This document shows positions 5,112-54,916 of a DNA stretch of 64,000 nucleotides, piece by piece. The notes under the pieces were generated by a model. That model was not told the DNA's origin and searched no databases. It saw nothing but the letters and a program-made list of their open reading frames with translations. Numbering within the stretch: the stretch's first letter is position 1; each line of letters starts with the position of its first letter. The stretch is taken from positions 3,286,001-3,350,000 of the forward strand of contig NZ_CP032382.1 of NCBI RefSeq assembly GCF_003589925.1, read 5' to 3'. This stretch comes from Chryseolinea soli (GTDB taxonomy: Bacteria; Bacteroidota; Bacteroidia; Cytophagales; Cyclobacteriaceae). The translations under genes and the position numbers were made by a program.

Positions 5112-5345
5112 GTAAAGTATTTTGTGCCGGCGGTCCGCCCTTTCTTTTTTATTTCTTGACGAGGTTTGATCCCGGCGGCACGTTGAAACGAGCACACGGG
5201 TTCAAAAATAGCAACTTAAAAGGAAAGCAAATCGTAGTTTTTTGCGAAATTCTTACGCATCCACCCGGATCGAATTCCATACTTAAGCCGTCGCTGAACT
5301 ATCGAAAGGGCGGTGACCCTACCTTTGATAGAAAAGCCTTGGACA

Positions 5346-6005
5346 ATGAAAAAATGCCTTCCTTCCGTCGCGTTTTTGTTTTTTATATTTCTGATCCCCT
5401 CGATCCGGGCCCAAGTCCCGGTAGAGGAGGATCCCTTCCATAAAATCGTATTCGAAAACAAATTTGTGCGCGTTCTGGACCTGACGATCAGGGGTTCGGA
5501 TACTACGACAATGCACGTTCATCGCGCTGCGTCCGTGGTAGTGTTCTTGACAAAGTCACCCTTGGTTATTCAAGCCCCCGGCGAAGCAGCGGTCGTCACG
5601 CCGGTTGACATTGGGAATATGCTATACCGGCCGTACGACGAGACCCCGACAACACACCGGGTCTGGAGTCAGGATGGGTCCACTATGCGGTGTATGGTGA
5701 TAGAGATAAAACACGACGCAACACAACGCGATGGTAAGCCCATCGTGGCGCCGGACGTGAACTTGTTGTCCAATCAAAAGCGGGTGAATGTATATGATCT
5801 GAAAGGGTCACAAGGCAAAGCATTATCGCTCAGTTCATCTCCGTGCCCGTATTTCTTACTGAATATTTCCGGGCCCCTAACGGCATCGGTATCGGGGGAG
5901 AAACATTTTCTGAATGCGGGCGACTTCATTTTTATTCCCGCCCAATCGCAGGCCACCCTGCTTGCAGCGAAGGACAACAAAAGCATTTTAATCCAACTAA
6001 AATAA
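5346..6005 (+). CDS. Secreted cupin-fold protein
   Basis: About 219 residues with a clear signal peptide (MKKCLPSVAFLFFIFLIPS, cleavage near RAQ). The mature part has two cupin-like halves: around residues 30-100 with TMHVHRAASVVVFLT, where the HxH could bind metal, and a C-terminal half ending GDFIFIPAQSQATLLA, a typical cupin second motif. Such double-barrel secreted cupins have no firm function. I chose the ATG at 5346 because it starts directly at the signal peptide; an upstream start at 5313 would put 11 extra residues in front. The gene stands between a leftward acyltransferase gene and a co-directional HTH gene 75 bp downstream. Confidence 0.65.
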   Translation: MKKCLPSVAFLFFIFLIPSIRAQVPVEEDPFHKIVFENKFVRVLDLTIRGSDTTTMHVHRAASVVVFLTKSPLVIQAPGEAAVVTPVDIGNMLYRPYDETPTTHRVWSQDGSTMRCMVIEIKHDATQRDGKPIVAPDVNLLSNQKRVNVYDLKGSQGKALSLSSSPCPYFLLNISGPLTASVSGEKHFLNAGDFIFIPAQSQATLLAAKDNKSILIQLK

Positions 6006-6079
6006 AACCTTTAAAAAATGATCGCCGTAGTTTTGAGGACAGGTCCGGCACCTGTCGGGCTCATTGATTACCTTGCTGT

Positions 6080-6766
6080 ATGGAAAAAGTAAGCCACTTT
6101 AGCACCATCGCGCTGCTCATCGGGGAGCCTGCACGCGCTACAATGCTCTGGAAGATCCTGGATGGACGCATGCATACCGCCACGGAACTTGCTATCGCCG
6201 CCGATCTGTCCGCGCAAAATGCCAGCATGCATCTGGCCAAACTTGTGAAAGCAGGACTTCTTTCGGTTGTGAAACGCGGCCGGCTCCGGTATTATCAATT
6301 TGCCAATCCGAACGTGGCTTACGTGATCGAGGCGATTGCCAACCTGGTGCCAAAAGAAAACCTGATGCCGCCCGATGACATTTCCAATAGCAGCCGCATC
6401 AAGTACTGCCGCACGTGCTACGACCACCTCGCCGGCAAAGTCGGGGTTGCCATCACTGAAAAACTTTTGTCCAGGAGGATCATCGAAGTGAACCAGCGAG
6501 ACTTCGTGATTTCAAGCAGCGGAATAAAATGGTTTGATCGCCTGGAGATCTCCATACCGGAACTGAAAGAGAGCAAGCGAGTCCTTGCCCGCCAATGTCT
6601 CGACTGGAGTGAAAAGCGCCCGCACATCTCGGGCGCTGTGGGTGCCGCGCTGGCCAATCGGCTCTTTGAATTGAAATGGCTGCAGCGGGTTAAAAATTCG
6701 AGGATCGTTTCCATTACGCCGCTGGGTCAGAAGAAAATTTATGACCTGCTTGGGTTGGTAGTGTGA
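6080..6766 (+). CDS. ArsR-like winged-helix transcriptional regulator
   Basis: 228 residues. The first 80 are a winged helix of ArsR type (ALLIGEPARATMLWKILDG, then the recognition helix region SAQNASMHLAKLVKAGLL and the wing VVKRGRLRYYQF). The extra C-terminal 140 residues contain CRTCYDHLAGKVGV, a conserved feature of this longer ArsR subgroup, in which the two Cys may bind metal or sense redox. A second helical region and a basic C-terminus follow. The effector is unknown. It follows the cupin gene in the same direction and may control it; a REP-like palindrome lies just downstream. Confidence 0.82.
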   Translation: MEKVSHFSTIALLIGEPARATMLWKILDGRMHTATELAIAADLSAQNASMHLAKLVKAGLLSVVKRGRLRYYQFANPNVAYVIEAIANLVPKENLMPPDDISNSSRIKYCRTCYDHLAGKVGVAITEKLLSRRIIEVNQRDFVISSSGIKWFDRLEISIPELKESKRVLARQCLDWSEKRPHISGAVGAALANRLFELKWLQRVKNSRIVSITPLGQKKIYDLLGLVV

Positions 6767-6805
6767 CGGACAATGTTCGTTTGCGCTCCAACTTCGAAGC
6801 AAATT

Positions 6806-6882
6806 TTTCACCGCGGAGACGCAAAGTCAACGCACAGCTTTTCTCTGCGCTAACTTTGCGCCGCTGCGTCTTTGCGGTTCAA
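6806..6882. repeat. Imperfect palindromic intergenic repeat (REP/MITE-like)
   Basis: The left arm (accgcggagacgcaaagt, from 6810) is the imperfect reverse complement of the right arm around 6855-6878 (actttgcg...ctttgcggt). It forms a long hairpin with an inner stem of about 16-18 bp and one 8-base insertion on the right side. The wording (CGCAGAGACGCAAAG-like) matches a class of intergenic palindromes seen in many environmental bacterial genomes. It lies between a rightward regulator and a leftward VOC gene, so it may also act in transcription termination. Only one clear copy is visible in this window. Confidence 0.55.
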
Positions 6883-6917
6883 TTTTGAGTTCCGCCCGGA
6901 GCACTCCAACCGATTCG

Positions 6918-7289
6918 TCATTTCCGTTGACGAAGCTCGATCCGATTTCCATCAGGATCAAGCGCCGCGATTCTCACACCAAAAGCATAATCTTCCGGTT
7001 CAGGCTGTAAAAATTTGACACCTTTCGAACGCAACACTTCAAAGTCCTTTCTTAGATCAACTGACTCGATGAAGATGGACCCGAGATTTAAGTCCTTGGA
7101 AGTCCCGGGCATCGCTGCTCCTTTCCAAAGCATTATCTCGACATCCTGTCCCTGGTAGCCCAGCGTTAGAAACCGACCTTCAGGACCGGGATAATCTACG
7201 CGCTTTTCAAAGCCGAGTTTTGTGTAAAAGTCAAGCGCTTTGTCCTGGTCGCTGACAAACTGTACGAAGTACATGATTTTGATAAACAT
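6918..7289 (-). CDS. VOC-superfamily protein (glyoxalase/bleomycin-resistance fold)
   Basis: About 123 residues with the two-module VOC pattern: YFVQFVSDQDKALDFYTKLG at the N-terminus, a central FLTLGYQGQDVEIML strand, and the C-terminal AALDPDGNRIEL that commonly carries the metal-ligand Glu. The length is normal. Start at 7289 (MFIKIMYFVQF); the frame extends 42 codons further upstream but that part does not look like protein of this family. The ligand is unknown. The hybrid two-component gene lies upstream on the same strand but is separated by a terminator, so this gene has its own promoter. Confidence 0.85.
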   Translation of the reverse strand: MFIKIMYFVQFVSDQDKALDFYTKLGFEKRVDYPGPEGRFLTLGYQGQDVEIMLWKGAAMPGTSKDLNLGSIFIESVDLRKDFEVLRSKGVKFLQPEPEDYAFGVRIAALDPDGNRIELRQRK

Positions 7290-7420
7290 AAAAGTATATT
7301 TTAGTTGTTGCCCTGGTAATGCTCGGAAGACGAGGGATTGGACAGGGAAATCAAAATAATTTGCCGCTGACCCAGGCCGCGCATTTATGCTTGACTGCTT
7401 CACCCGTCGATGCATAAAAC

Positions 7421-7454
7421 AAAACCCTCAAATCATTCGACTTGAGGGTTTTTT
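7421..7454 (-). terminator. Intrinsic terminator after the hybrid two-component gene
   Basis: A perfect 11-bp stem (AAAACCCTCAA / TTGAGGGTTTT) with a short AT-rich loop, A-rich on one side and T-rich on the other, so it can work in both directions. It lies 34 bp past the stop of the leftward regulator gene. Confidence 0.85.
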
Positions 7455-7487
7455 ACTTTCAGTGGATCCTGATAGGAATCGAGCCTC

Positions 7488-10400
7488 CTAAGCCCCTTTG
7501 GCGCGGTCGAAATCTTTCGGATGGCAGTGGAACATTTCATTAAAAGATTTATAGAAATAAGACCGGCTGTTGAAACCGGTTTCGTAGATCACTTCGGAGA
7601 CACTCAGGTTGGTGTTTCTTAACAGGTCGGCCGCTTTTTTCAGGCGGTATTGTTTTATTAAGCCGTGTGGCGTCATGCCGGTGATGGTCTTCACTTTTTT
7701 GTACAGCGAAGCTTTGCTCATGCTGACGTGTTCGGCAATGGTGTCGGCGTTGAATTCGGGTTCGCTCAGGTGAAGCTGGATGCATTCGGTTATTTTGGAA
7801 AAGAAGTCGTCGTCTTTTTCGCCGATGCCGGTGGAGAGGTGGGTGAGCTCGAGGTCGTCGAGGTTTTTGAATTTTTTGCGGATCAGCTCCATGCGTTCGA
7901 TCAGCTTTTCGATGCGGATAAAAAGATGTTCGGGGTGAAAAGGTTTGGGAATGTAAGAATCCGCGCCAACCTGGAGCCCTTCGATGCGGTTCTCGATCTC
8001 TCCTTTGGCCGTCAGCAGGATCACGGGGATGTGACTGCTTTGAATATCCTCCTTGATGTTCTTGCACAACGTGAGGCCATCCATGTCGGGCATGATCACG
8101 TCGCTGATCACCAGGTCGATGCGTTCTTCTTCGAGGATCTCCAGGGCCTTTTTTCCGTTACGGGCTTTATAGATCTTGTACTTATCGGAAAGCATGTTCT
8201 CGAGCAACGAGATGATATTGACATTGTCGTCCACCACCAGCAGCGAATAGGCATGCGCATTTGCAGCAGCGTTCAGGGCCTTTTCGGGTTGATCCGTCAC
8301 GTAGTGATTGGTGTCAAACTCAAGGGATATTTTCTCCACCAGGTTCGAAGAGGGGAGGATCATGGCATTTTCTTCCGGCAGATCAAGATAGTATTCGCGG
8401 GCGACCGGGATCATCACGGTGAAGGTGCTGCCTTTTCCGATCTTGCTTTCTACCTGTATTTCTCCCCGGTGTATTTGCACCATGCTTTTGGTGAGTGACA
8501 GCCCGATGCCGGTGCTTTTGGCAAAACCATTGGGGTCGAGCACTTCCGCCGGGTTGTGGTAGAAGCTTTCAAAGATCTTGTTCCGGTTCTCTTCGGCAAT
8601 GCCGATGCCTTCATCGCGGATGGTGAAAAACGCCCGGCCTTCCCGTTCCTTCAGCGACACGCTGATCATGCCTCCCTTTGTATTGTACTTGATGCCGTTG
8701 GAGATCAGGTTGATCAGGATCTTTTCTATTTTTTTATAGTCGACCCGCGCGGGCAGCGATTCCGGCTCCGGATAAAATTCAAGATGCACCTCATAGTCGG
8801 TCGCATGCTGCTGGAAGGACTCCACGATTTCCTGCGTGAAGGGTACGAGGTCGATCGTCGAGAGCGTCAGCATGTCCTTGCCGCTTTCTATTTTCCGGAA
8901 CTGGATGAGTTCGTCGATCAACTTCTGAAGCCGCAGCGAGTTGCTGTAGACCGTTTTCAGCTGCTGCTGGTCATTGACGTCCTTGTTCTTGTGCAACAGG
9001 GAGGCTACCGGGCCGAGGATCAAGGTTAGCGGAGTGCGGAACTCGTGGGCGACATTGGTGAAGAACTGCAGCTTGTAGTCGTTGAGCTCTTTTAACTGAA
9101 GGGCTTTAAATTTTTCAATCGCCAGCGCTTTCTTTGCCCGCGTTCTCCTCCGGATATACAGGATGATACCGAGTTGCAAGGCAATCGCCAGGAGGATATA
9201 GAACCCGTACGCCCAATACGTCTTCCAGAACGGTGGCGTCACGATGATGTTGATGGTTTTGGCTAGCGGAGCCCAATCGCCATTTTCATTGGTGTAGTTG
9301 ATGTTCAGCTTATATTGGCCCGGCGGAATGTTGGTCAGCGTCACGGCCTGCTGCTGACCGATGTAGTTCCAGTCTTTGTCAAAGTTCTCCAGGAAATAGG
9401 CGTATTCGCTTTTCTGTTTATTCCAGTAGTCCAGCGTCGTAAAGAAAAAGCTGATGAAGTTCTGATCATACTTCAGCGTCACGTTTTCGGTCCGGTCGAT
9501 ATTCTCGGTGAGGATCTGGCTGCCGTCGCGGGGCATGATCACGGCGTTCCGCACCTGAAATTCAGTGACCGTGAGGCGTGGGAAATAACTTTGTGTGTTC
9601 ACCTTGGTGGGGTAGACGACATCCAATCCTTCGATGCCGCCGAAGAAAAGTTTCTCAGAAGTCCTGGACCGGAATGCCGCGCCATCGGTGAACTCGTTGT
9701 TCTGCAAGCCGTCGTTCGTATCAAAATTCTTGAACGTATTTTTCGCGGCATCGTGCATGACCAGGCCGTGGTTCGTCGAGAGCCAGATGTTGCCCTTCGG
9801 ATCTTCGAGTATGCCGTGGATGGTGTTGTTGGGTAGCCCCTCGTGTTGTGTGAAGTGCTCCAGGCGATAGGGCCTGCTTTGAAGGAAGAGCCGGTTCAAT
9901 CCGCCGCTGGTGCCGATCCAGAGTTGTTCATGCTGATCCAGGTACAGGCTCAGCACATCGTTGTTGCTCAGCCTGTTTTTGTCGCGTGGATCGGCTTGAA
10001 TGTGATCTTCAATTTTCTTGGTCAACGCATTGTACCGGTAGACGCCTCCTCCGCGTGTGCCAAACCAGAGGGTGTTTGGTTTTTCTTCTACGATGGCGTA
10101 CACAATATTGCTCTTGATCCAGATCGGCCGGCCTTTGTCGGGGTGCGACAGCTGATCATATTCCTTGAGCCGGTATCCGCGCGGGGTCTTGATCACTTTC
10201 AGGTGAATGATGCCATACCCGCTCGTGCCGAGCCAGATGTCGTTGAACGCATCCACGCAGATGGCATAGACCGAGCTGAACGAAAGGTCGTTGTCGTTTT
10301 CAAAGTCTTCCGGGAAGTGAAATATTTTGTGCGTGCCCGCTTCGATCATATCGATGCCTTCGCCGTCGAGACCTACCCAGATATTCCCTTCATGGTCTTT

Positions 10401-11624
10401 GTTAATAGAGAGCACGGCGTTGTTGCTCAGGCCATTCGTGGTGTTGACGATCTTTGTTTTTGTCTGGCCGGGATTGATAATGTTCAGTCCGCCGCCGCGC
10501 GTCCCAATATAGAGTGTCCCGGCATTGTCTTCGTAAACCGAGCGGATGATGCTGTGCGAAAGCTGACCGTTTTCCGGCTGGCCTTTCGGGATGGAGTAGA
10601 AAGTTTTTGCCCGCGTCAGAAATTTATAAACGCCATCACCATCGGTGCCCACCCACACGATGTCCTGTTTGGTTTCCGTGATGGTCAGGATCTTTATATG
10701 CGCTTTTGAAAAAGCCGGGAAATAGGAATTCATGGACTTGACTGAGAGTCCTTCGGCGGCTTCTGTGATCTTGAAAATATCCCCGGCCTCGGTGCCCAGC
10801 CAAAGCGCGGTGTGGTCAAGGTTTTCCGATAGCGAGGAGACGGTGACGCTTCCCAGATCAATATGGTCCGGTCCTTTTTCAGCATCGGCCAGATCATATA
10901 AGAGCAGTTGACCATCGGTGGTGGCGATGGCCAGCAGGTAACGCGTTCCAAGACGAAGAAAGGTGTGGAAGGCGATCGGCTTTCGGTTTGCCAGCTGTTT
11001 GCTGAACACCAACCGGTTGTTGACCGTACACACCAGCTTGCCATCACTGCCAAGAAGATACAGCAGTCCTTCATGTTGTCCAAGGTTGATCACGGACCGA
11101 AGCCACGATGCATCAACGCCTTCAAAGTTCACCGGCATGAACGCATTCTTTTCTGCCGCATACCGGCTGATGCCTTTGCCGATGAGGCTGGTCCACACCG
11201 CGGAGTCTGCGCCGATGCAGGCGCGGATATTGTATTCCAGGAATGGAATGTCGTTCAGGCTGTCGAGGTAAGTTTGAAACGAGTCGGTGGTGCGGTTGTA
11301 TTTGTTGATACCCTGGTGGGTCACGATCCACAGGTTTCCTTTTCCGTCTTCCAGGAAATTTCGGATAATGTTGTTGCTGATCGTCCCTTTCAGGAAAGGA
11401 TCGGGCTTGTATACTTTAATAGAGCTGCCGTCATAGCGGTTCAGTCCGTCCCAGGTGCCCAGCCATACATAGTCATATTGATCCATGTAGACCGAAGTGA
11501 TCGCGCTGTTGGAGAGTTTTGCCCTTTTGTCGACATGCTGAAAGGGCCAGGGGGAAGCACTGTCGCCCTGTACCAGATTCGATAGCGCCGTAAGAAGCAG
11601 AACACCAAACATGATACCGGCCAT
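7488..11624 (-). CDS. Hybrid two-component system regulator (propeller sensor, histidine kinase, REC, AraC HTH)
   Basis: 1378 residues with the full HTCS plan. A signal peptide is followed by a periplasmic two-bladed propeller sensor built of repeated units such as YVWLGTWDGLNRYD and LWIGTSGGLNRLF (about 25-690). A Y_Y_Y domain (about 720-800) and one membrane span (about 805-828) come next. The kinase has its phospho-His in NVAHEFRTPLTLILGP (about 858), then a HATPase domain (DEGIGIAEENRNKIFESFY). The receiver domain has VVDDN near 1130 and phospho-Asp in VISDVIMPDMDG near 1173, and the C-terminal 100 residues are an AraC DNA-binding domain. HTCS proteins sense a glycan breakdown product in the periplasm and switch on the linked PUL. 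The divergent GH130-SusCD operon begins about 210 bp away and is its expected target. Confidence 0.97.
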   Translation of the reverse strand: MAGIMFGVLLLTALSNLVQGDSASPWPFQHVDKRAKLSNSAITSVYMDQYDYVWLGTWDGLNRYDGSSIKVYKPDPFLKGTISNNIIRNFLEDGKGNLWIVTHQGINKYNRTTDSFQTYLDSLNDIPFLEYNIRACIGADSAVWTSLIGKGISRYAAEKNAFMPVNFEGVDASWLRSVINLGQHEGLLYLLGSDGKLVCTVNNRLVFSKQLANRKPIAFHTFLRLGTRYLLAIATTDGQLLLYDLADAEKGPDHIDLGSVTVSSLSENLDHTALWLGTEAGDIFKITEAAEGLSVKSMNSYFPAFSKAHIKILTITETKQDIVWVGTDGDGVYKFLTRAKTFYSIPKGQPENGQLSHSIIRSVYEDNAGTLYIGTRGGGLNIINPGQTKTKIVNTTNGLSNNAVLSINKDHEGNIWVGLDGEGIDMIEAGTHKIFHFPEDFENDNDLSFSSVYAICVDAFNDIWLGTSGYGIIHLKVIKTPRGYRLKEYDQLSHPDKGRPIWIKSNIVYAIVEEKPNTLWFGTRGGGVYRYNALTKKIEDHIQADPRDKNRLSNNDVLSLYLDQHEQLWIGTSGGLNRLFLQSRPYRLEHFTQHEGLPNNTIHGILEDPKGNIWLSTNHGLVMHDAAKNTFKNFDTNDGLQNNEFTDGAAFRSRTSEKLFFGGIEGLDVVYPTKVNTQSYFPRLTVTEFQVRNAVIMPRDGSQILTENIDRTENVTLKYDQNFISFFFTTLDYWNKQKSEYAYFLENFDKDWNYIGQQQAVTLTNIPPGQYKLNINYTNENGDWAPLAKTINIIVTPPFWKTYWAYGFYILLAIALQLGIILYIRRRTRAKKALAIEKFKALQLKELNDYKLQFFTNVAHEFRTPLTLILGPVASLLHKNKDVNDQQQLKTVYSNSLRLQKLIDELIQFRKIESGKDMLTLSTIDLVPFTQEIVESFQQHATDYEVHLEFYPEPESLPARVDYKKIEKILINLISNGIKYNTKGGMISVSLKEREGRAFFTIRDEGIGIAEENRNKIFESFYHNPAEVLDPNGFAKSTGIGLSLTKSMVQIHRGEIQVESKIGKGSTFTVMIPVAREYYLDLPEENAMILPSSNLVEKISLEFDTNHYVTDQPEKALNAAANAHAYSLLVVDDNVNIISLLENMLSDKYKIYKARNGKKALEILEEERIDLVISDVIMPDMDGLTLCKNIKEDIQSSHIPVILLTAKGEIENRIEGLQVGADSYIPKPFHPEHLFIRIEKLIERMELIRKKFKNLDDLELTHLSTGIGEKDDDFFSKITECIQLHLSEPEFNADTIAEHVSMSKASLYKKVKTITGMTPHGLIKQYRLKKAADLLRNTNLSVSEVIYETGFNSRSYFYKSFNEMFHCHPKDFDRAKGA

Positions 11625-37784: not shown

Positions 37785-38990
37785 ATGAATCTCATGAGAA
37801 TTTACCTCTTTATTGTGTGTCTTGCAGGTACTATGACGCAGAACATTCTTGCTCAAAAGAACAGTCATGCTTCTGATCACAAGCAGGAAAAAAAGGAAAA
37901 GTACAGTCATGATCTTCCCGACTTCGATCGTTATGTAGAACTGGAAACCAAAGTGGATACAACGGGGAGTGTAAGTTGCGCCGATTTCGATGGCGATGGT
38001 CATCTTGACATTCTCCTGGTGAAAGGACGACATTGGCCTATTGTCGACCGGGTCCTTCTCGGTGATGGGTTAGGCGGGATCCGAAAGGCTTATGACCTCG
38101 GGAAGGTAGCAGACCGCTCATACACCGGCGGTGTAGCTGATTTGAACGGCGATGGTTCCCCTGACATTGCGGTTAGCAATGATGACCCGGATCGGAAACT
38201 GATTTATTTTAATGACGGGAAAGGTAATTTTAAAATGGAGTCTGAATTCGGGAGCCCTGAGTGGTCGACCCGGAATTTGTCCATTGCGGATATCAATGGT
38301 GATCGATGGCCGGATCTCATTTTGGCGAACCGCGGTGATTTGGGAAGAACATCAAATGATATCTGCTTAAACAATGGGAAAGGACAGTTTGCCAAATGCA
38401 TCTCATTTGCCCCATATCCTGCCACGGCAATCTATCCTGTGGACATTAACAAAGATGGTTTCGTAGACCTTGTTGTGCCGCATCGCGACGGTGGCCAGAG
38501 TTACGTATACCTCGGCAGTTCAAATGCAACCTTCCCGGACACGCATCGCATTCCCTTCGGGCCACCGAACGCTACGATTCGTATTGCAGCGGCAGCAGAT
38601 TTCAATGGAGATAGTATACTTGACATTGTAGCGATAGACCAAAACAAAGGGGTAGATCTTTATTTTGGACAAGAAGATCAGACTTTTTCCGAAGGCATTT
38701 CCTTAGCAGGCCCAAAGATCGTCCCCTATGCACTGGAAATAGCGGATCTGGATAATGACAAAAAGATTGATATTATCGTAGGCTATGTAGAAGCGCCATC
38801 AACGGTATTTTTTAATGACGGTACAGGCCGCAACTTTAAATCGATTTCTTTCGGCGATGCGAAGGGCACAGCGTATGGTTTTGGAGTTGGCGATTTCAAT
38901 GAAGACGGAGTGCTTGACATCGCGGCTGCCCGCTCAGACGCTACGAATGTTTTGTACTTTGGCAATAGCAAAGCAAAAAAAAGTAAATGA
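37785..38990 (+). CDS. Secreted FG-GAP/VCBS repeat protein
   Basis: About 401 residues with a signal peptide (LFIVCLAGTMTQNILAQ). After a Lys/His/Asp-rich spacer come seven FG-GAP-type units, each with a calcium-binding DxDxDG-like loop: DFDGDGHLDI, DLNGDGSPDI, DINGDRWPDL, DINKDGFVDL, DFNGDSILDI, DLDNDKKIDI and DFNEDGVLDI. Seven units are enough for a complete integrin-like beta-propeller. No enzyme domain and no T9SS sorting domain are present, so it is a free periplasmic or secreted propeller, probably for binding. Start 37785 or, three codons later, 37794 (MRIYLF). Confidence 0.88.
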   Translation: MNLMRIYLFIVCLAGTMTQNILAQKNSHASDHKQEKKEKYSHDLPDFDRYVELETKVDTTGSVSCADFDGDGHLDILLVKGRHWPIVDRVLLGDGLGGIRKAYDLGKVADRSYTGGVADLNGDGSPDIAVSNDDPDRKLIYFNDGKGNFKMESEFGSPEWSTRNLSIADINGDRWPDLILANRGDLGRTSNDICLNNGKGQFAKCISFAPYPATAIYPVDINKDGFVDLVVPHRDGGQSYVYLGSSNATFPDTHRIPFGPPNATIRIAAAADFNGDSILDIVAIDQNKGVDLYFGQEDQTFSEGISLAGPKIVPYALEIADLDNDKKIDIIVGYVEAPSTVFFNDGTGRNFKSISFGDAKGTAYGFGVGDFNEDGVLDIAAARSDATNVLYFGNSKAKKSK

Positions 38991-39154
38991 ACAATGTTAA
39001 GGGCGACAGAAGAGAAGGTCACTCAGCCAAAGTAAAATGGGAGTGACGCGATAACACCTGACAAAGTCGCAAATACCCTTCATGAGTTATAATCCCACGT
39101 CTTAAATTTGCTTGATCACAAAATGAATGGTCACAGCTTAAAATTCAAAGACAC

Positions 39155-50158: not shown

Positions 50159-50375
50159 AAGGTCAGGTTTGGCGAATGATATCCCAATTTCCTGCCAAAA
50201 ACGAAAACCACACCTCGCACTTTAATTTGGCAGCAGACCTGCAGTGCAAATGGTCGGATCTGGGACGAACAGCCCGTCTACGGGCACTTCACTTTATCCG
50301 TGAGCGCCAGATGTTCTTTGTACTTCCTAAATAAGTGAGCAATTCGGGAGCCCGCTTCAAAACTGGGTGCCTCGG

Positions 50376-50516
50376 TCACCAACCGACGTACTGAAACGTT
50401 CTTTGCGCGAAGGCAATTCCACAGTATAAGTTCACTATGATCAGAAGGAAGTACCACAAAGCCATGGCGATGTTGGCAAGGGTCTTCGGAAGAAAGGTCG
50501 TTAAGAATTTATACAT
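50376..50516 (-). CDS. DltX-like membrane microprotein
   Basis: 46 residues, too short for usual gene calling. It begins 2 bp after the stop of the MBOAT gene, so it is tightly coupled to it. Residues 1-13 are polar and basic (MYKFLTTFLPKT), residues 14-37 form one membrane span (LANIAMALWYFLLIIVNLYC), and the last residues RTFQYVGW face outward if the Lys-rich end stays inside. DltX of Gram-positive dlt operons is also about 45-50 residues, with one span and a conserved C-terminal FxYxxF motif whose Tyr is proposed to carry the acyl group across to the MBOAT product. FQYVGW matches the aromatic-x-Tyr-x-x-aromatic form. Function by analogy and position. Confidence 0.7.
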   Translation of the reverse strand: MYKFLTTFLPKTLANIAMALWYFLLIIVNLYCGIAFAQRTFQYVGW

Positions 50517-50518
50517 GA

Positions 50519-51616
50519 TCAGTTAATAAAGAACAAGGTTTTATAAACATTAAGCGCTTTTACGAATTCATAGTCGATGATCACACAACTCAGGCAGAAG
50601 TAATTGAATACAAAAACTCTTCCCAGGTTCTTGCTAACCAATGAAGTTGGCGTATCCTTAAAAAGGAACGCCAGATAGATTCCGAAAGCTTGCAACGATC
50701 CCCAGATCAAAAAAGGTAAGGTGATTTCGTGCCATAGCGCGATGATGATCATCGTGATAATAACCCCTAACATTGGTTTCCTGAAGTAAGAAGCAAGAGG
50801 AGTATAAATATAGTCGCGGCAAAATGAGGTAAGCGACATGTGATATTTTGACCAAAACTCCTGCATATTACTGGCCAGGAACGGAAAATTGAAGTTTTCC
50901 ATTACACGGAAACCAAGCAACAGTGAAATACCAATGGCGATGTCAGAGTAGCCAGCAAACTGGAAGTATGCTTTCAGTACTACGGTGATTGTCTCCAGGT
51001 ATACCTTGAGCCAATGTTTGCTTTCGTCTATGTTGGAAATGAGGGTAGAAAATTTTAAGCTGAGGATGTAGCTTCCGATAATCATGATCTTCGAAAAGCC
51101 ATATAAAATGCGCTGAAAGCCCAATGAGAAATATGCACTGTTTACTCGTCTTCTTTGCCAATCCCTTATGAACTCTGGATAACGATTGATTGGACCAATG
51201 ATCAGCACAGGTAGAAAAAAGTTATAAGCGAGGTAGAACAGCAGACTCTCATTTTGAATCCTGCCATGGTAGCTCTCAATTGTATAATGGATGTTTCGGA
51301 AAATGTAATAGGACATCCCAAGGGGGATTATCCAATGGTCATGAATGGTAAATAGAATTTTGGCTGACACAATAAGCAACACCAAAATCCCCAAGCTGAT
51401 CACAATCTTTATAGACTGTCGCAAAACCGCTTTGTGCAATAAATAGTAATTGCCGAACGTGATCGTGCCAAGAATGGCAAAAGATAAAGGTGATTGATAC
51501 GCGATGAAAAGTGCAGTGATAATGATCTGGGAAAGCAATACATATTTTTTTGGCAACGTCCATGCCAATAGGATCATGGGCATTGCGAACAATATGACTT
51601 CAATGAGTAGCCTCAT
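50519..51616 (-). CDS. MBOAT-family acyltransferase, DltB-like
   Basis: About 365 residues and around ten spans. MBOAT hallmarks: LGMSYYIFRNIHYTIESY (about 99-116), AYFQFAGYSDIAIGISLLLG (about 216-235), EFWSKYHMSLTSFCRDYIYT (about 253-272), and the catalytic His296 in ALWHEITLPFLIWG. The layout fits the DltB/AlgI branch, which moves acyl groups across or at the outer face of the inner membrane to an extracytoplasmic polymer. Start 51616 (MRLLIEVILF), overlapping the end of the SGNH gene by 17 bp; a longer frame to 51670 is less likely. It is the third gene of the Dlt-like cassette. Confidence 0.92.
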   Translation of the reverse strand: MRLLIEVILFAMPMILLAWTLPKKYVLLSQIIITALFIAYQSPLSFAILGTITFGNYYLLHKAVLRQSIKIVISLGILVLLIVSAKILFTIHDHWIIPLGMSYYIFRNIHYTIESYHGRIQNESLLFYLAYNFFLPVLIIGPINRYPEFIRDWQRRRVNSAYFSLGFQRILYGFSKIMIIGSYILSLKFSTLISNIDESKHWLKVYLETITVVLKAYFQFAGYSDIAIGISLLLGFRVMENFNFPFLASNMQEFWSKYHMSLTSFCRDYIYTPLASYFRKPMLGVIITMIIIALWHEITLPFLIWGSLQAFGIYLAFLFKDTPTSLVSKNLGRVFVFNYFCLSCVIIDYEFVKALNVYKTLFFIN

Positions 51617-52541
51617 AACATTTTTTTGACGCAATTTCAGACACGAACCATTTTTGATATTGCATTCCACCCTTTGAGTTCAAGTGAGCGCCGTCGGTGA
51701 AAAATGAATTATCCATAACGTAGGGGAAGCGCCAATAATCAACATGATATTGAGTTTTATAGACTGTCAAGAGCTTGTTGAGCTCAGACGCTGTTTGTTG
51801 ATCCATGAAATTATGGGGAAACAATTTATTCAAGGGTATGTCCAGGAGAACCACTCTTGTGTTGTTTTTCGCTAACGCATCGAATGCGGTGTTGATGACA
51901 TTGTTTTGCCACATTTTTCTAACCGAAGACTTTGAATGAAGGAGTTTTTTGAACATCACACTGTCAAACTCGTGCGTGTAGTAGATATCATCGGGTTGTG
52001 GTTTTCCGTCGAAGGTATACCACTTGACGTAGTAATTATCATGTGCGGGCTCCCCAATTGCATTCCGAATAATATTCCGGACGTTCAGTAGGGCCATATT
52101 GATGGGGTCAGGCGTCAGGGCGGTCGTATCGCCATGAGTCAGATTGAAACTGAAATTTTCAACGAACAAATAATTGGGGGGATATTTGACGATATAGTCA
52201 AAAAAGTCAATGTCTTGAGCAACCGTGGGGGTAAGATAATTCAACGCCACACGAAGCACTTTCGCTTTTCTGTTTGTTAGCTTGTAAATACTGTCTTCAA
52301 GCGCGCGAGGATCCACCAGAGCGTGTTCGGTCAAAGAAGAGCCAAAGATGACGATCGATAACGCGGATGTATCGCGGGTATTTTCAATTAGTGCGCTTTC
52401 GAGATTCTTATTCGAGAGCGCTACCGTTTTGGCATAAGGTCCGTTATTCGAATAACTGTAATAAAGAAATGAAAGTACAATAGCAAGACTTGCAAGGATA
52501 GGGAAGACCCATGTTCGTAACGGAGGTGCATCGTCAGTCAT
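51600..52541 (-). CDS. DltD-like SGNH-fold protein, membrane anchored
   Basis: 313 residues. One N-terminal span (about 10-28) places the rest in the periplasm. The SGNH-type blocks are VIFGSSLTEHAL with Ser68 as likely nucleophile, and FTDGAHLNSKGG with Asp283 and His286 at the far end, the usual DxxH. DltD has the same plan (span, GSS block, late D-H) and helps move the D-alanyl group onto teichoic acid. The gene starts directly after the stop of the adenylation gene (TAGATG) and overlaps the MBOAT gene, so all three are co-translated. The acceptor polymer here cannot be teichoic acid in a Gram-negative. Confidence 0.82.
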   Translation of the reverse strand: MTDDAPPLRTWVFPILASLAIVLSFLYYSYSNNGPYAKTVALSNKNLESALIENTRDTSALSIVIFGSSLTEHALVDPRALEDSIYKLTNRKAKVLRVALNYLTPTVAQDIDFFDYIVKYPPNYLFVENFSFNLTHGDTTALTPDPINMALLNVRNIIRNAIGEPAHDNYYVKWYTFDGKPQPDDIYYTHEFDSVMFKKLLHSKSSVRKMWQNNVINTAFDALAKNNTRVVLLDIPLNKLFPHNFMDQQTASELNKLLTVYKTQYHVDYWRFPYVMDNSFFTDGAHLNSKGGMQYQKWFVSEIASKKCYEATH

Positions 52542-54377
52542 CTATTGTAGCTTTTTTTGAATGACATTTCGAATAGCACGTATGGACGTCATCACCATAG
52601 CATCAGAAGTTGAAAACTTGATGTCAAATACTTGTTCGAGTCGGGTTATCAGGGCCAGATGATTCAGCGAATCCCACCCGGAAACGGTTCGTGTTGAACT
52701 CATTTCGGTGATGTCAGTGTGCTTGACCTTGAAAATAGTTGCGGCATTCTTGACTATTGTTTCCAGAACTCCTTCGCTTTTTGCAATAGGCGCGGCGTGT
52801 TTTTTAATCACGATCTTTTTTAATTCCTCTATCTGGATCTTGCCGCTGATTCCACGAGGAAATGAATCGATGACAAACATATCCTGAGGTACTTTTTCGG
52901 GTTCAAGATTTTCGCGCAAAAACTTATAGATCACCAGTTCATCTACTACGACATTGTCCTTTGGCTTTATACACGCGATCATTTTTTCCGTCAGGATAGG
53001 GTCCGTTAGCCCAATAACTTTACATTCATCTACTTCGTTAAGTTTGAGAAGGAGCTCTTCTATTTCTTCTGGTTGAACTCGGAATCCCCCGGAATTGATC
53101 ATACTCTTTTTTCGGCCAACGATTTTAATAAATCCTCCCTCGTCTTCACGTGCGATATCTCCGGAATAGAGCCACCCGTCGATCAACACCTTGTTAGTAG
53201 CCTCGGGGTTATTAAAGTAACCGACCATCACGTGATCGCCTTTCAATAGAAGTTCACCTTTTTCACCTTTCTTGACTTCCTGCCCTTCTTCATTAATGAT
53301 TTTGATGCTGCAGTCGGCGGGTTTACCTACTGTGCCTATCTTAAAGGTGTCTGCGCTGGGTCCGCAATAGACACTTCCCGTTACCGTTTCGGTGAGACCA
53401 TAAATGTTTGCGACCTGAATCTTAAATATAGAGGAAACCGAATGCCATAATCGTTCTTCCAACAATGCTGCTACAGAGACAGCGAATTTAAAGTCAGGTG
53501 TCTTGAAACTATCCTCAAAACCTTCATGATATTTTTCAAAGAAGGCTAGTAACGTAGGCACAACGAACAGGTGTGTGACCTCATATTTGTAAATGCCATC
53601 GTAGATAAGGTCCAATCTGGAGGTGTCCAGCCTAAACGGACTTATCCATGTACCTCCGCAATAGAAAGCTAACAAAGGTCCCTGGTTGATCCCGTCCGTA
53701 TGATATAAATTCAGGACGTTCAGGATCCTGACTTTGTCATCCATTCCATAAACATTCTTAAGCGTTTCCAGGTGTGAGAACAAATTCTTATGGGATATCA
53801 CCACACCTTTGGGATCAGAGGTGGATCCGGACGTGTACATCATGTATGCAACACATGACGAGTCAATGAATGGTGGGTATGTTGGTGGTGTGTTTTCGAG
53901 GCCTTTCAAACAAGCTGGATATGTGCGATCAGACTGAAGATCGCTACCGTTCGTGTTCCGTGAAAAGATGCTTTTGAAAACATTCTTTTTTTCTTCGCGA
54001 ATATTGTTGATCTCAACGGTATTTGTTCCCTCCATTCTCCACGCCGAAACCAGGTCATGGTCAATGAAGAATGCAACGGGACTAGCTTGGTCGATGATGG
54101 AATGTATCCTGTCAGCCTTAGCGTTGGGATCCGTTAATATGACAGTTAACCCAAACCTGTATGCAGCAATTGTAATTTCGGCAAGCGCTCTTTTGTCATT
54201 TGTCGATAATACGATCTTATCTCCTTGCTTAAGATTTAGTCGCTGAAAAATTACGCTTAGCTTGTCTACCGTAGCAAGTAGATTACCGTAGGTGACGGCC
54301 TCCCCATCGTGCAGCACGGCAAACACTTTTTTAGGATAGAGTTTTGCACGGCCCACTAACTCAACGATACTTTTCAT
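52542..54377 (-). CDS. Adenylation enzyme fused to acyl/peptidyl carrier protein (DltA-DltC-like)
   Basis: 611 residues. Residues 1-530 are an ANL-superfamily adenylating enzyme: A3 YTSGSTSDPKGVV, A5 NIYGLTET, A7 LYSGDIA, A8 GRKKSMINSGGFRVQPEEIE, A10 GISGK with catalytic Lys513. Residues about 540-611 are a carrier-protein domain with the phosphopantetheine Ser570 in GWDSLNHLAL. In dlt operons DltA charges D-Ala onto a separate DltC; here carrier and enzyme are one chain. The activated acid is not known: it could be an amino acid or another acid. It begins the leftward cassette; AAAGGAT about 6 bp before ATG is an acceptable ribosome site. Needs a phosphopantetheinyl transferase, not seen in the window. 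Confidence 0.9.
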   Translation of the reverse strand: MKSIVELVGRAKLYPKKVFAVLHDGEAVTYGNLLATVDKLSVIFQRLNLKQGDKIVLSTNDKRALAEITIAAYRFGLTVILTDPNAKADRIHSIIDQASPVAFFIDHDLVSAWRMEGTNTVEINNIREEKKNVFKSIFSRNTNGSDLQSDRTYPACLKGLENTPPTYPPFIDSSCVAYMMYTSGSTSDPKGVVISHKNLFSHLETLKNVYGMDDKVRILNVLNLYHTDGINQGPLLAFYCGGTWISPFRLDTSRLDLIYDGIYKYEVTHLFVVPTLLAFFEKYHEGFEDSFKTPDFKFAVSVAALLEERLWHSVSSIFKIQVANIYGLTETVTGSVYCGPSADTFKIGTVGKPADCSIKIINEEGQEVKKGEKGELLLKGDHVMVGYFNNPEATNKVLIDGWLYSGDIAREDEGGFIKIVGRKKSMINSGGFRVQPEEIEELLLKLNEVDECKVIGLTDPILTEKMIACIKPKDNVVVDELVIYKFLRENLEPEKVPQDMFVIDSFPRGISGKIQIEELKKIVIKKHAAPIAKSEGVLETIVKNAATIFKVKHTDITEMSSTRTVSGWDSLNHLALITRLEQVFDIKFSTSDAMVMTSIRAIRNVIQKKLQ

Positions 54378-54916
54378 TATATCCTTTTTCGAATTATTAA
54401 ATGCCGGTCAATGCCTACCGCAAGGCTGTGCATGCCGGTGTAAAAACTTGGGAGATTTAAGTCACCGGTGTTTCCAGTGGACCGCTTAACTCGACCAAAA
54501 ACCATCTGTCCCCTCTAATCAGAAAACCGAATCGCAAAAAATCAAATTACCAATAGTAGATGCGCTGAATAACAACTTAGTAAATGTAATGAATAAAATC
54601 AGCAAAGAAAACACGTGTTTCGGCAGTATAGCACGTTTACCAGCCTACCCATAAGCGCCATCTTTGGATGTTCGAAACATGCAGTGTTTAGCCGTGTGTT
54701 ATTCTACACCCCATGTACACTACGAAATAATTAAGCGCTAGACCAAACGGGCTCTGCCGACAGTTGTTTCATATTTCATTAAAAATAATTATGAGCAGGC
54801 AAAAAGTGGTTTGTCACCGGAGCATTCAGAGGCATGGGCCTGAGAGCCTTTCTCTGCCAGCAGTAGCTAGTGGCGCGGGCTACTCGATTTGTGGCAGTGT
54901 TTTTTTTTATCGTCTT
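54378..54916. other. Intergenic region upstream of the Dlt-like cassette
   Basis: 539 bp with no credible gene on either strand; the two short frames in it translate to low-quality sequence. It must hold the cassette promoter close to 54377 and the 3' end of the AraC gene transcript near 54917. I see no clear hairpin with a T-run and no repeat. Confidence 0.4.

Follow-up and report, generated by a model that had tools for sequence, protein, structure and literature searches.

In the genome of Chryseolinea soli (8.24 Mb, one contig) we examined a stretch of 64,000 nucleotides, here referred to as the window, and identified on its minus strand, at positions 50376–54377, a cassette of four genes. 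By analogy with known proteins, it probably encodes a Dlt-type machine for transmembrane acylation that depends on a carrier protein and belongs to a separate family. The genes encode, in series, a fused adenylation-carrier protein (A-CP), an SGNH-type protein, a compact MBOAT acyltransferase and a membrane microprotein. This reading is carried by the gene content, the conservation of the presumed catalytic residues, a C-terminal tyrosine hexapeptide split off from the MBOAT, and the recurrence of the set in Bacteroidota and in two proteobacterial contigs. As far as sequences can tell, the cassette is predicted to be Dlt-like in its workings and is not a Dlt by sequence, because the Pfam DltX and DltD families were unmatched and the MBOAT and adenylation (A) domains fall in clades apart from DltB and DltA.

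Layout of the cassette

Open reading frames (ORFs) and their translations gave junctions of 0 bp between A-CP and the SGNH gene, a 17-bp overlap (−17) between the SGNH and MBOAT genes, and +2 bp between the MBOAT and microprotein genes. This confirms the four coupled leftward genes of a preliminary description of this DNA, and the Dlt-like function set which it proposed, DltX-type microprotein included, was borne out in this Bacteroidota genome. The features are as follows; loci and genomes are referred to below by our L and G numbers, respectively.

52542..54377, minus strand: A-CP, acyl-CoA-ligase-type A domain and C-terminal carrier domain, 611 amino acids (Pfam AMP-binding, AMP-binding_C and, below cut-off, PP-binding)
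53694..53702, minus strand: H226-T-D228 of the H-x-D-G A-domain signature (alignment of 121 rows)
52668..52670, minus strand: Ser570 in GWDSL, presumed phosphopantetheine attachment site (translation, motif check, invariant in a 7-sequence alignment)
51600..52541, minus strand: SGNH-type protein, presumed acyltransferase, 313 amino acids, with helix 9–30 as presumed membrane anchor (alignment, model, structure matches)
52335..52337, minus strand: Ser69, presumed catalytic serine of the SGNH protein (alignment, residue check)
50519..51616, minus strand: compact MBOAT acyltransferase without C-terminal Tyr hexapeptide, 365 amino acids
50840..50842, minus strand: His259 of the MBOAT, likewise invariant (35-sequence alignment)
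50729..50731, minus strand: His296 (WHE), presumed catalytic MBOAT histidine (invariant in 35 sequences, residue check)
50376..50516, minus strand: DltX-type membrane microprotein, 46 amino acids, C-terminus FQYVGW (translation, counterparts at other loci)
50379..50396, minus strand: FQYVGW, acyl-shuttle-type hexapeptide (likeness to FXYXXF in the available text of PMC12148441 and to the annotated DltX end FIYNEF; residue check)
50388..50390, minus strand: Tyr43 of the microprotein (residue check)
50311..54598, no strand: block alignable to L041 at 97% (50370–54519 to L042 at 94%), adjoining flanks not alignable (blastn)

The compact MBOAT and its microprotein

The MBOAT matched Pfam PF03062 (64.8 bits, E 1.1e-17), with His259 and His296 invariant in 35 aligned sequences, and a structure match confirmed the superfamily fold. 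A sequence search of solved structures reached DltB alone (E 2.1e-19 and 3.5e-19), which is also the nearest solved structure. In the MBOAT tree (70 rows, unrooted, with long branches for L053, L137, L159, L047 and L019), 22 compact MBOATs lie on one side of a 99/99 branch and the AlgI-like ones on the other side, so that the branching with alginate-type MBOATs, which would count against a Dlt-like reading, was not seen. The three DltB sequences form their own clade (100/100), separate from the compact one. Because the tree is unrooted and has long branches, it is not used here to place the compact family closer to DltB than to AlgI.

A C-terminal x-x-Y-x-x-F was present in 42 of the 46 other MBOATs collected, including all three others of the host genome, and in none of the 22 compact MBOATs or the 3 DltB. 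The four exceptions among the 46 were L019, L027, L137 and L159; the L027 ORF is truncated by the end of its contig and for that reason has no place in the tree, but it is counted here. It is the cassette microprotein, not the MBOAT, that bears the hexapeptide (FQYVGW), and the annotated DltX of L157 and L158 ends likewise in FIYNEF.

A microprotein counterpart was identified at all 17 compact-MBOAT loci, 15 from Bacteroidota and 2 on proteobacterial contigs (the window, L041–L047, L050, L052–L054, L169–L171, L176 and L177; L051 repeats L045 and L175 repeats L050, each pair being counted once), with the tyrosine fourth from the C-terminus in 16 of the 17 and fifth in L053. In a scan of 18 loci for ORFs of 35–60 amino acids, 18 of 1473 ORFs ended in F-x-Y-x-x-hydrophobic, and 15 of these 18 were cassette microproteins. 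The proteobacterial loci missed by the scan were read in all frames, which gave ends FRYQDI in Halioglobus L052 and IIYLDMP in Paracoccaceae L053. The microprotein had no Pfam match, and PF12459 (DltX) had none at E up to 10 for the window microprotein (P0001) and two other cassette microproteins, while the controls P0288 and P0289 scored 57.6 and 57.9 bits. Its ratio of nonsynonymous to synonymous substitution rates (dN/dS) was about 0.14 against two close relatives.

Small ORFs with similar ends were also observed elsewhere. In L159 (4280–5879), on a plasmid of Leptolinea sp. HRD-7 (Chloroflexota), a 47-amino-acid ORF ending WIYQGF lies directly upstream of a 483-amino-acid hexapeptide-less MBOAT; the two are possibly another split MBOAT/shuttle pair, and no adenylation gene is annotated in 10.7 kb around them. 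In L048 (G240, 8317–10521), a 372-amino-acid MBOAT without the hexapeptide and outside the compact clade is followed, about 0.9 kb downstream, by a 58-amino-acid ORF ending FFYSDF. L194 (G1395, 5318–9365) holds a related but different split set: an AMP-ligase of 499 amino acids without an evident fused carrier, an SGNH-like ORF, a small ORF ending TAFRYQNF and a 413-amino-acid hexapeptide-less MBOAT, preceded by an ORF which by eye looks sulfotransferase-like.

Relatives, linkage and a fifth gene

The cassette was present in five of six genomes of the genus, G003 being the one without it. Compact MBOATs were detected in 3 of 395 genomes of the phylum (the host, G059 and G069), 4 of 395 of the class and 5 of 390 of the order, the host being included each time; these counts are lower bounds because about five first-look candidates were scored per genome. 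Three further matches in the order, at 207–212 bits, have frames of 430–533 amino acids. Among 321 genomes of the class to which the Halioglobus genome belongs, two passed 1e-70, namely Halioglobus itself and, with a weaker match, G1395. A profile search of a large protein set gave 366 MBOATs, the best 120 of which were considered; the names among the matches listed included Flavobacterium, Pedobacter, Saprospiraceae, Flavilitoribacter, Imperialibacter, Niabella and Arenicella. For A-CP, 5135 proteins of that set were over threshold, of which the best 120 were likewise considered, and many of the remaining ones may be ordinary ligases.

Where loci were reached through the MBOAT alone, A-CP was present in all except L046, where the contig ends. 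Among the 80 loci reached through A-CP, five carry a compact MBOAT, and these five have the five best scores. In L046 itself (G069, 134–2584), the compact MBOAT and the microprotein lie near the contig edge, a transposase-like ORF (by eye) overlaps the 5′ end of the MBOAT frame, and no further cassette gene was found in 12 kb around the MBOAT.

At 11 of the 17 loci (L043, L045, L047, L050, L052, L054, L169, L170, L171, L176 and L177) a fifth gene lies upstream of A-CP, encoding a protein that resembles a methyltransferase in its N-terminal part and has an AMP-binding domain at its C-terminus, referred to here as MT-A (888–999 amino acids; 861 in L052, cut by the contig end). Cytophaga aurantiaca DSM 3654 (L045, repeated as L051) is a cultured strain that carries all five genes. 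No MT-A adjoins A-CP in the window, L041, L042, L044 or L053, and L046 cannot be judged because of the contig end. Three of the 11 were scanned with Pfam, the other eight being recognised by profile match or alignment; the methyltransferase domain was weak in two of these three and absent in the third. The PDB gave a weak methyltransferase match only (E 0.13), and one of three sequences matched the NCBIfam model BioC weakly. In 9 of 11 rows motif I is W-x-R-[ST]-G-[WF], replacing the glycine-rich loop, and all 11 rows share an unchanged FPHV. Given this atypical motif I and the weak family matches, the methyltransferase activity of MT-A is putative. Within the genus MT-A occurs in G005 only, and the intergenic stretch upstream of the window A-CP held no remnant of it (best tblastn E 0.64); the best MT-A match in the host genome is A-CP (28%), the others being AMP ligases which match the C-terminal part only. 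In L047 (8324–9700), a class III aminotransferase overlaps the start of the MT-A ORF, upstream of the cassette, a possible hint at an amino-bearing acid in that lineage.

The adenylation-carrier protein and its pocket

A-CP matched Pfam AMP-binding (E 5.1e-62) and AMP-binding_C (E 8.6e-10). Of 121 aligned rows, 117 retain Ser570 (the rest being three gaps and one Lys) and 120 have H226, D228 and G229, the remaining row being gapped there. The top NCBIfam models were CoA ligases, at 283 bits versus 168 bits for the amino-acid adenylation model, and the best 25 of 116 matches were mostly CoA-ligase models, with DltA not among them. In a quick A-domain tree (58 rows, 3 DltA, no nonribosomal peptide synthetase (NRPS) domains sampled), A-CP, MT-A and DltA each formed a clade with a support of 100; the A-CP clade is separate from DltA, being on the side of the acyl-CoA ligases, and joins MT-A at 90 in the approximate likelihood-ratio test (SH-aLRT), under the 95 mark.

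In a plain alignment, in which the length of the pocket loop is ambiguous, the Asp228 column holds the Asp of the DltA SFD motif in 3 of 3 DltA and 0 of 7 acyl-CoA ligases (the L176 row was left out of the counts). We take this Asp of DltA to be the ligand of the substrate amino group. By DhbE/PheA numbering, acyl and aryl ligases have two more residues in this loop, and His226, not Asp228, would then stand at the DltA Asp position. A pocket which excludes amino acids, with His in place of the DltA Asp, was considered and dropped, since the plain alignment sets Asp228 in that column and the loop length is ambiguous. D-alanine and other acids are both candidate substrates of A-CP.

The SGNH protein

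In a 24-sequence alignment G67, S68, S69, D283 and H286 of the SGNH protein were invariant. Relatives of the protein that carry an organism name came from Chryseolinea. Pfam gave a sub-threshold GDSL match alone. No DltD (PF04914) match was found at E up to 1, with a control DltD at 419 bits, and two distant cassette SGNH proteins had none at E up to 0.1. A Foldseek search with the structure model (predicted local distance difference test, pLDDT, 85) placed DltD (6o93) at rank 4, E 8.4e-5, amid other SGNH-type chains, and PatB at ranks 33 and 43; DltD is thus one among several near-equal SGNH structures, and it was not among the 50 entries listed by VIA-align, which is no argument against it. 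The gene order is altered in L177 (9234–11811), where a full SGNH gene follows the MBOAT and a 103-amino-acid C-terminal SGNH fragment precedes it.

Mobility and neighbourhood

The blastn comparisons delimited a 4.2-kb block that is 94–97% identical in two sister genomes whose flanks differ. Elsewhere in L041 a few more matches occur, e.g. 37909–38991 at 78%, and L042 is a short contig of 14,617 bases. In G003, which is without the cassette, the right flank was found at 89%, up to 54908, but with no left flank next to it; an exact empty site there is consequently not proven. No transposase was seen in the block besides the four genes. Judged from these alignments, the block behaves like a mobile unit.

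Pfam assigned none of 10 flanking genes at five relatives' loci to glycan assembly (two had no Pfam match, and one encodes a ThuA-family protein, 'Trehalose utilisation' by name); the flanks of the remaining loci were read by eye only. The same holds for the four window neighbours, an FtsX-type permease, an AraC regulator, a short-chain dehydrogenase and an aldo-keto reductase. The context gives no indication of the acceptor.

Proposed mechanism and alternative explanations

All the chemical steps proposed here are drawn by analogy with Dlt and PatAB. A-CP would activate a carboxylic acid with ATP in the cytoplasm and load its own phosphopantetheine arm. The compact MBOAT would then take the acyl group off the carrier and move it across the membrane onto Tyr43 of the microprotein, which would in turn deliver it to Ser69 of the SGNH protein, itself anchored in the membrane. 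The SGNH protein would esterify a hydroxyl acceptor outside the cytoplasm, for which a periplasmic or surface glycan or glycolipid is the likeliest candidate. MT-A may make or activate the acid at the 11 loci where it occurs; the genome of the window manages without it. Beyond this scheme, we lean towards the view that the cassette represents an undescribed, horizontally spread Gram-negative family, with Bacteroidota and proteobacterial members, whose carrier-dependent and microprotein-shuttled acylation works with some acid different from D-alanine, and that its DltX-type split is tied to an acyl carrier instead of acyl-CoA.

Several observations weigh against the carrier-dependent, Dlt-type reading. 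The PP-binding match of A-CP (E 0.016) is under the Pfam cut-off; no SGNH gene was found on Halioglobus contig L052 (7,950 bases); the L053 microprotein end deviates from the motif, and the final residue in cassette microproteins is mostly W or L, not F. PORCN and MBOAT7 are nearly as near in structure to the MBOAT as DltB is. The DltB model TIGR04091 scored 137 bits, below its cut-off of 375, and also matches AlgI-size MBOATs of other genomes at 128–181 bits; because of the latter, this match proves nothing on DltB kinship and was dropped as proof.

A true Dlt, which D-alanylates or otherwise aminoacylates a surface polymer and so changes its charge, would have the same function set, and both Asp228 in the column of the DltA Asp and the aminotransferase of L047 fit it; we consider it improbable, as A-CP lies outside the DltA clade in the tree, CoA-ligase models fit it best, the loop length by DhbE/PheA numbering would move His226 into the DltA position, and the Pfam DltX and DltD families were unmatched. 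Tailoring and export of a small secreted metabolite or lipid, by a mini assembly line of MT-A and A-CP whose product the MBOAT and SGNH proteins release outside, is unlikely yet deserves some weight: the two adenylation proteins join in the tree, MT-A has a methyltransferase-like domain, none of the 10 flanking genes belongs to glycan assembly, and the block appears mobile. Against it, no condensation, reductase or transport gene recurs in the loci read by eye, and the MBOAT/SGNH pairs in the available text of PMC12148441 act on envelope polymers. An ordinary AlgI/PatA-like acetyl-CoA O-acetyltransferase beside an unrelated adenylation-carrier gene is very improbable and was already disfavoured. 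Several relatives do carry the source name 'alginate O-acetyltransferase complex protein AlgI', and one AlgI-size MBOAT of the host is 32% identical over residues 96–342, but the 99/99 branch, the missing Tyr hexapeptide and the recurrence of A-CP and the microprotein next to the compact MBOAT all speak otherwise.

The Dlt-like interpretation of the preliminary description thus stood in its function set and in the separation from alginate-type MBOATs. Kinship of the parts was not supported, neither for an SGNH protein that is DltD-like in the family sense nor for an MBOAT, A domain and microprotein that are relatives proper of DltB, DltA (three sequences each) and DltX. The suggested change of charge or masking of a polymer is unsupported, with no glycan-assembly gene among the 10 flanking genes and the four window neighbours.

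If the carrier-dependent family is real, the split between MBOAT and shuttle peptide would be a general signature of carrier-fed MBOATs. The family's place away from DltB in the tree makes it an independent case for asking why this peptide is detached when the donor is a carrier protein. It would point to a yet-unassigned, probably surface, acylation in environmental Bacteroidota, and a gene for 46 amino acids is easily overlooked by annotation. In our literature search no published description of the family was recognised, an absence that is weak as most subscription papers were beyond reach.

Comparison with known systems

With DltABCD-DltX of Bacillota the cassette shares an adenylation enzyme, a carrier, a hexapeptide-less MBOAT, an SGNH protein and a membrane microprotein of about 45 amino acids with an F-x-Y-x-x-aromatic end. 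It differs in the fusion of A domain and carrier, in its gene order (dltX stands before dltA in L157 and L158, and is not annotated in L156), in its family matches and clades as described above, in the MT-A gene of 11 of 17 loci, and in its Gram-negative hosts. PatA/PatB peptidoglycan and AlgI-type alginate O-acetylation share the MBOAT with its SGNH partner and a Tyr hexapeptide as presumed shuttle. In these, according to the available text of PMC12148441, the hexapeptide ends the MBOAT itself and the donor of PatA is acetyl-CoA, whereas in the cassette the motif sits on the microprotein and a carrier fusion is present. That text describes MBOAT/SGNH pathways other than Dlt as having neither a carrier protein nor a DltX-like microprotein; the cassette family, contrary to this, seems to have both.

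Dlt-like logic in Gram-negatives is not new, since the dra locus and AlmEFG precede it, as far as the available texts go. The Bordetella dra locus, likened here by description only, is credited in a review with D-alanine addition to the outer membrane of a Gram-negative (PMC4448142). AlmEFG, which glycylates the lipopolysaccharide of Vibrio cholerae (PMC3783018), shares an adenylation enzyme and a carrier which feed a Gram-negative surface modification, while its transferase AlmG is an LPLAT-domain protein and not an MBOAT/SGNH/microprotein set.

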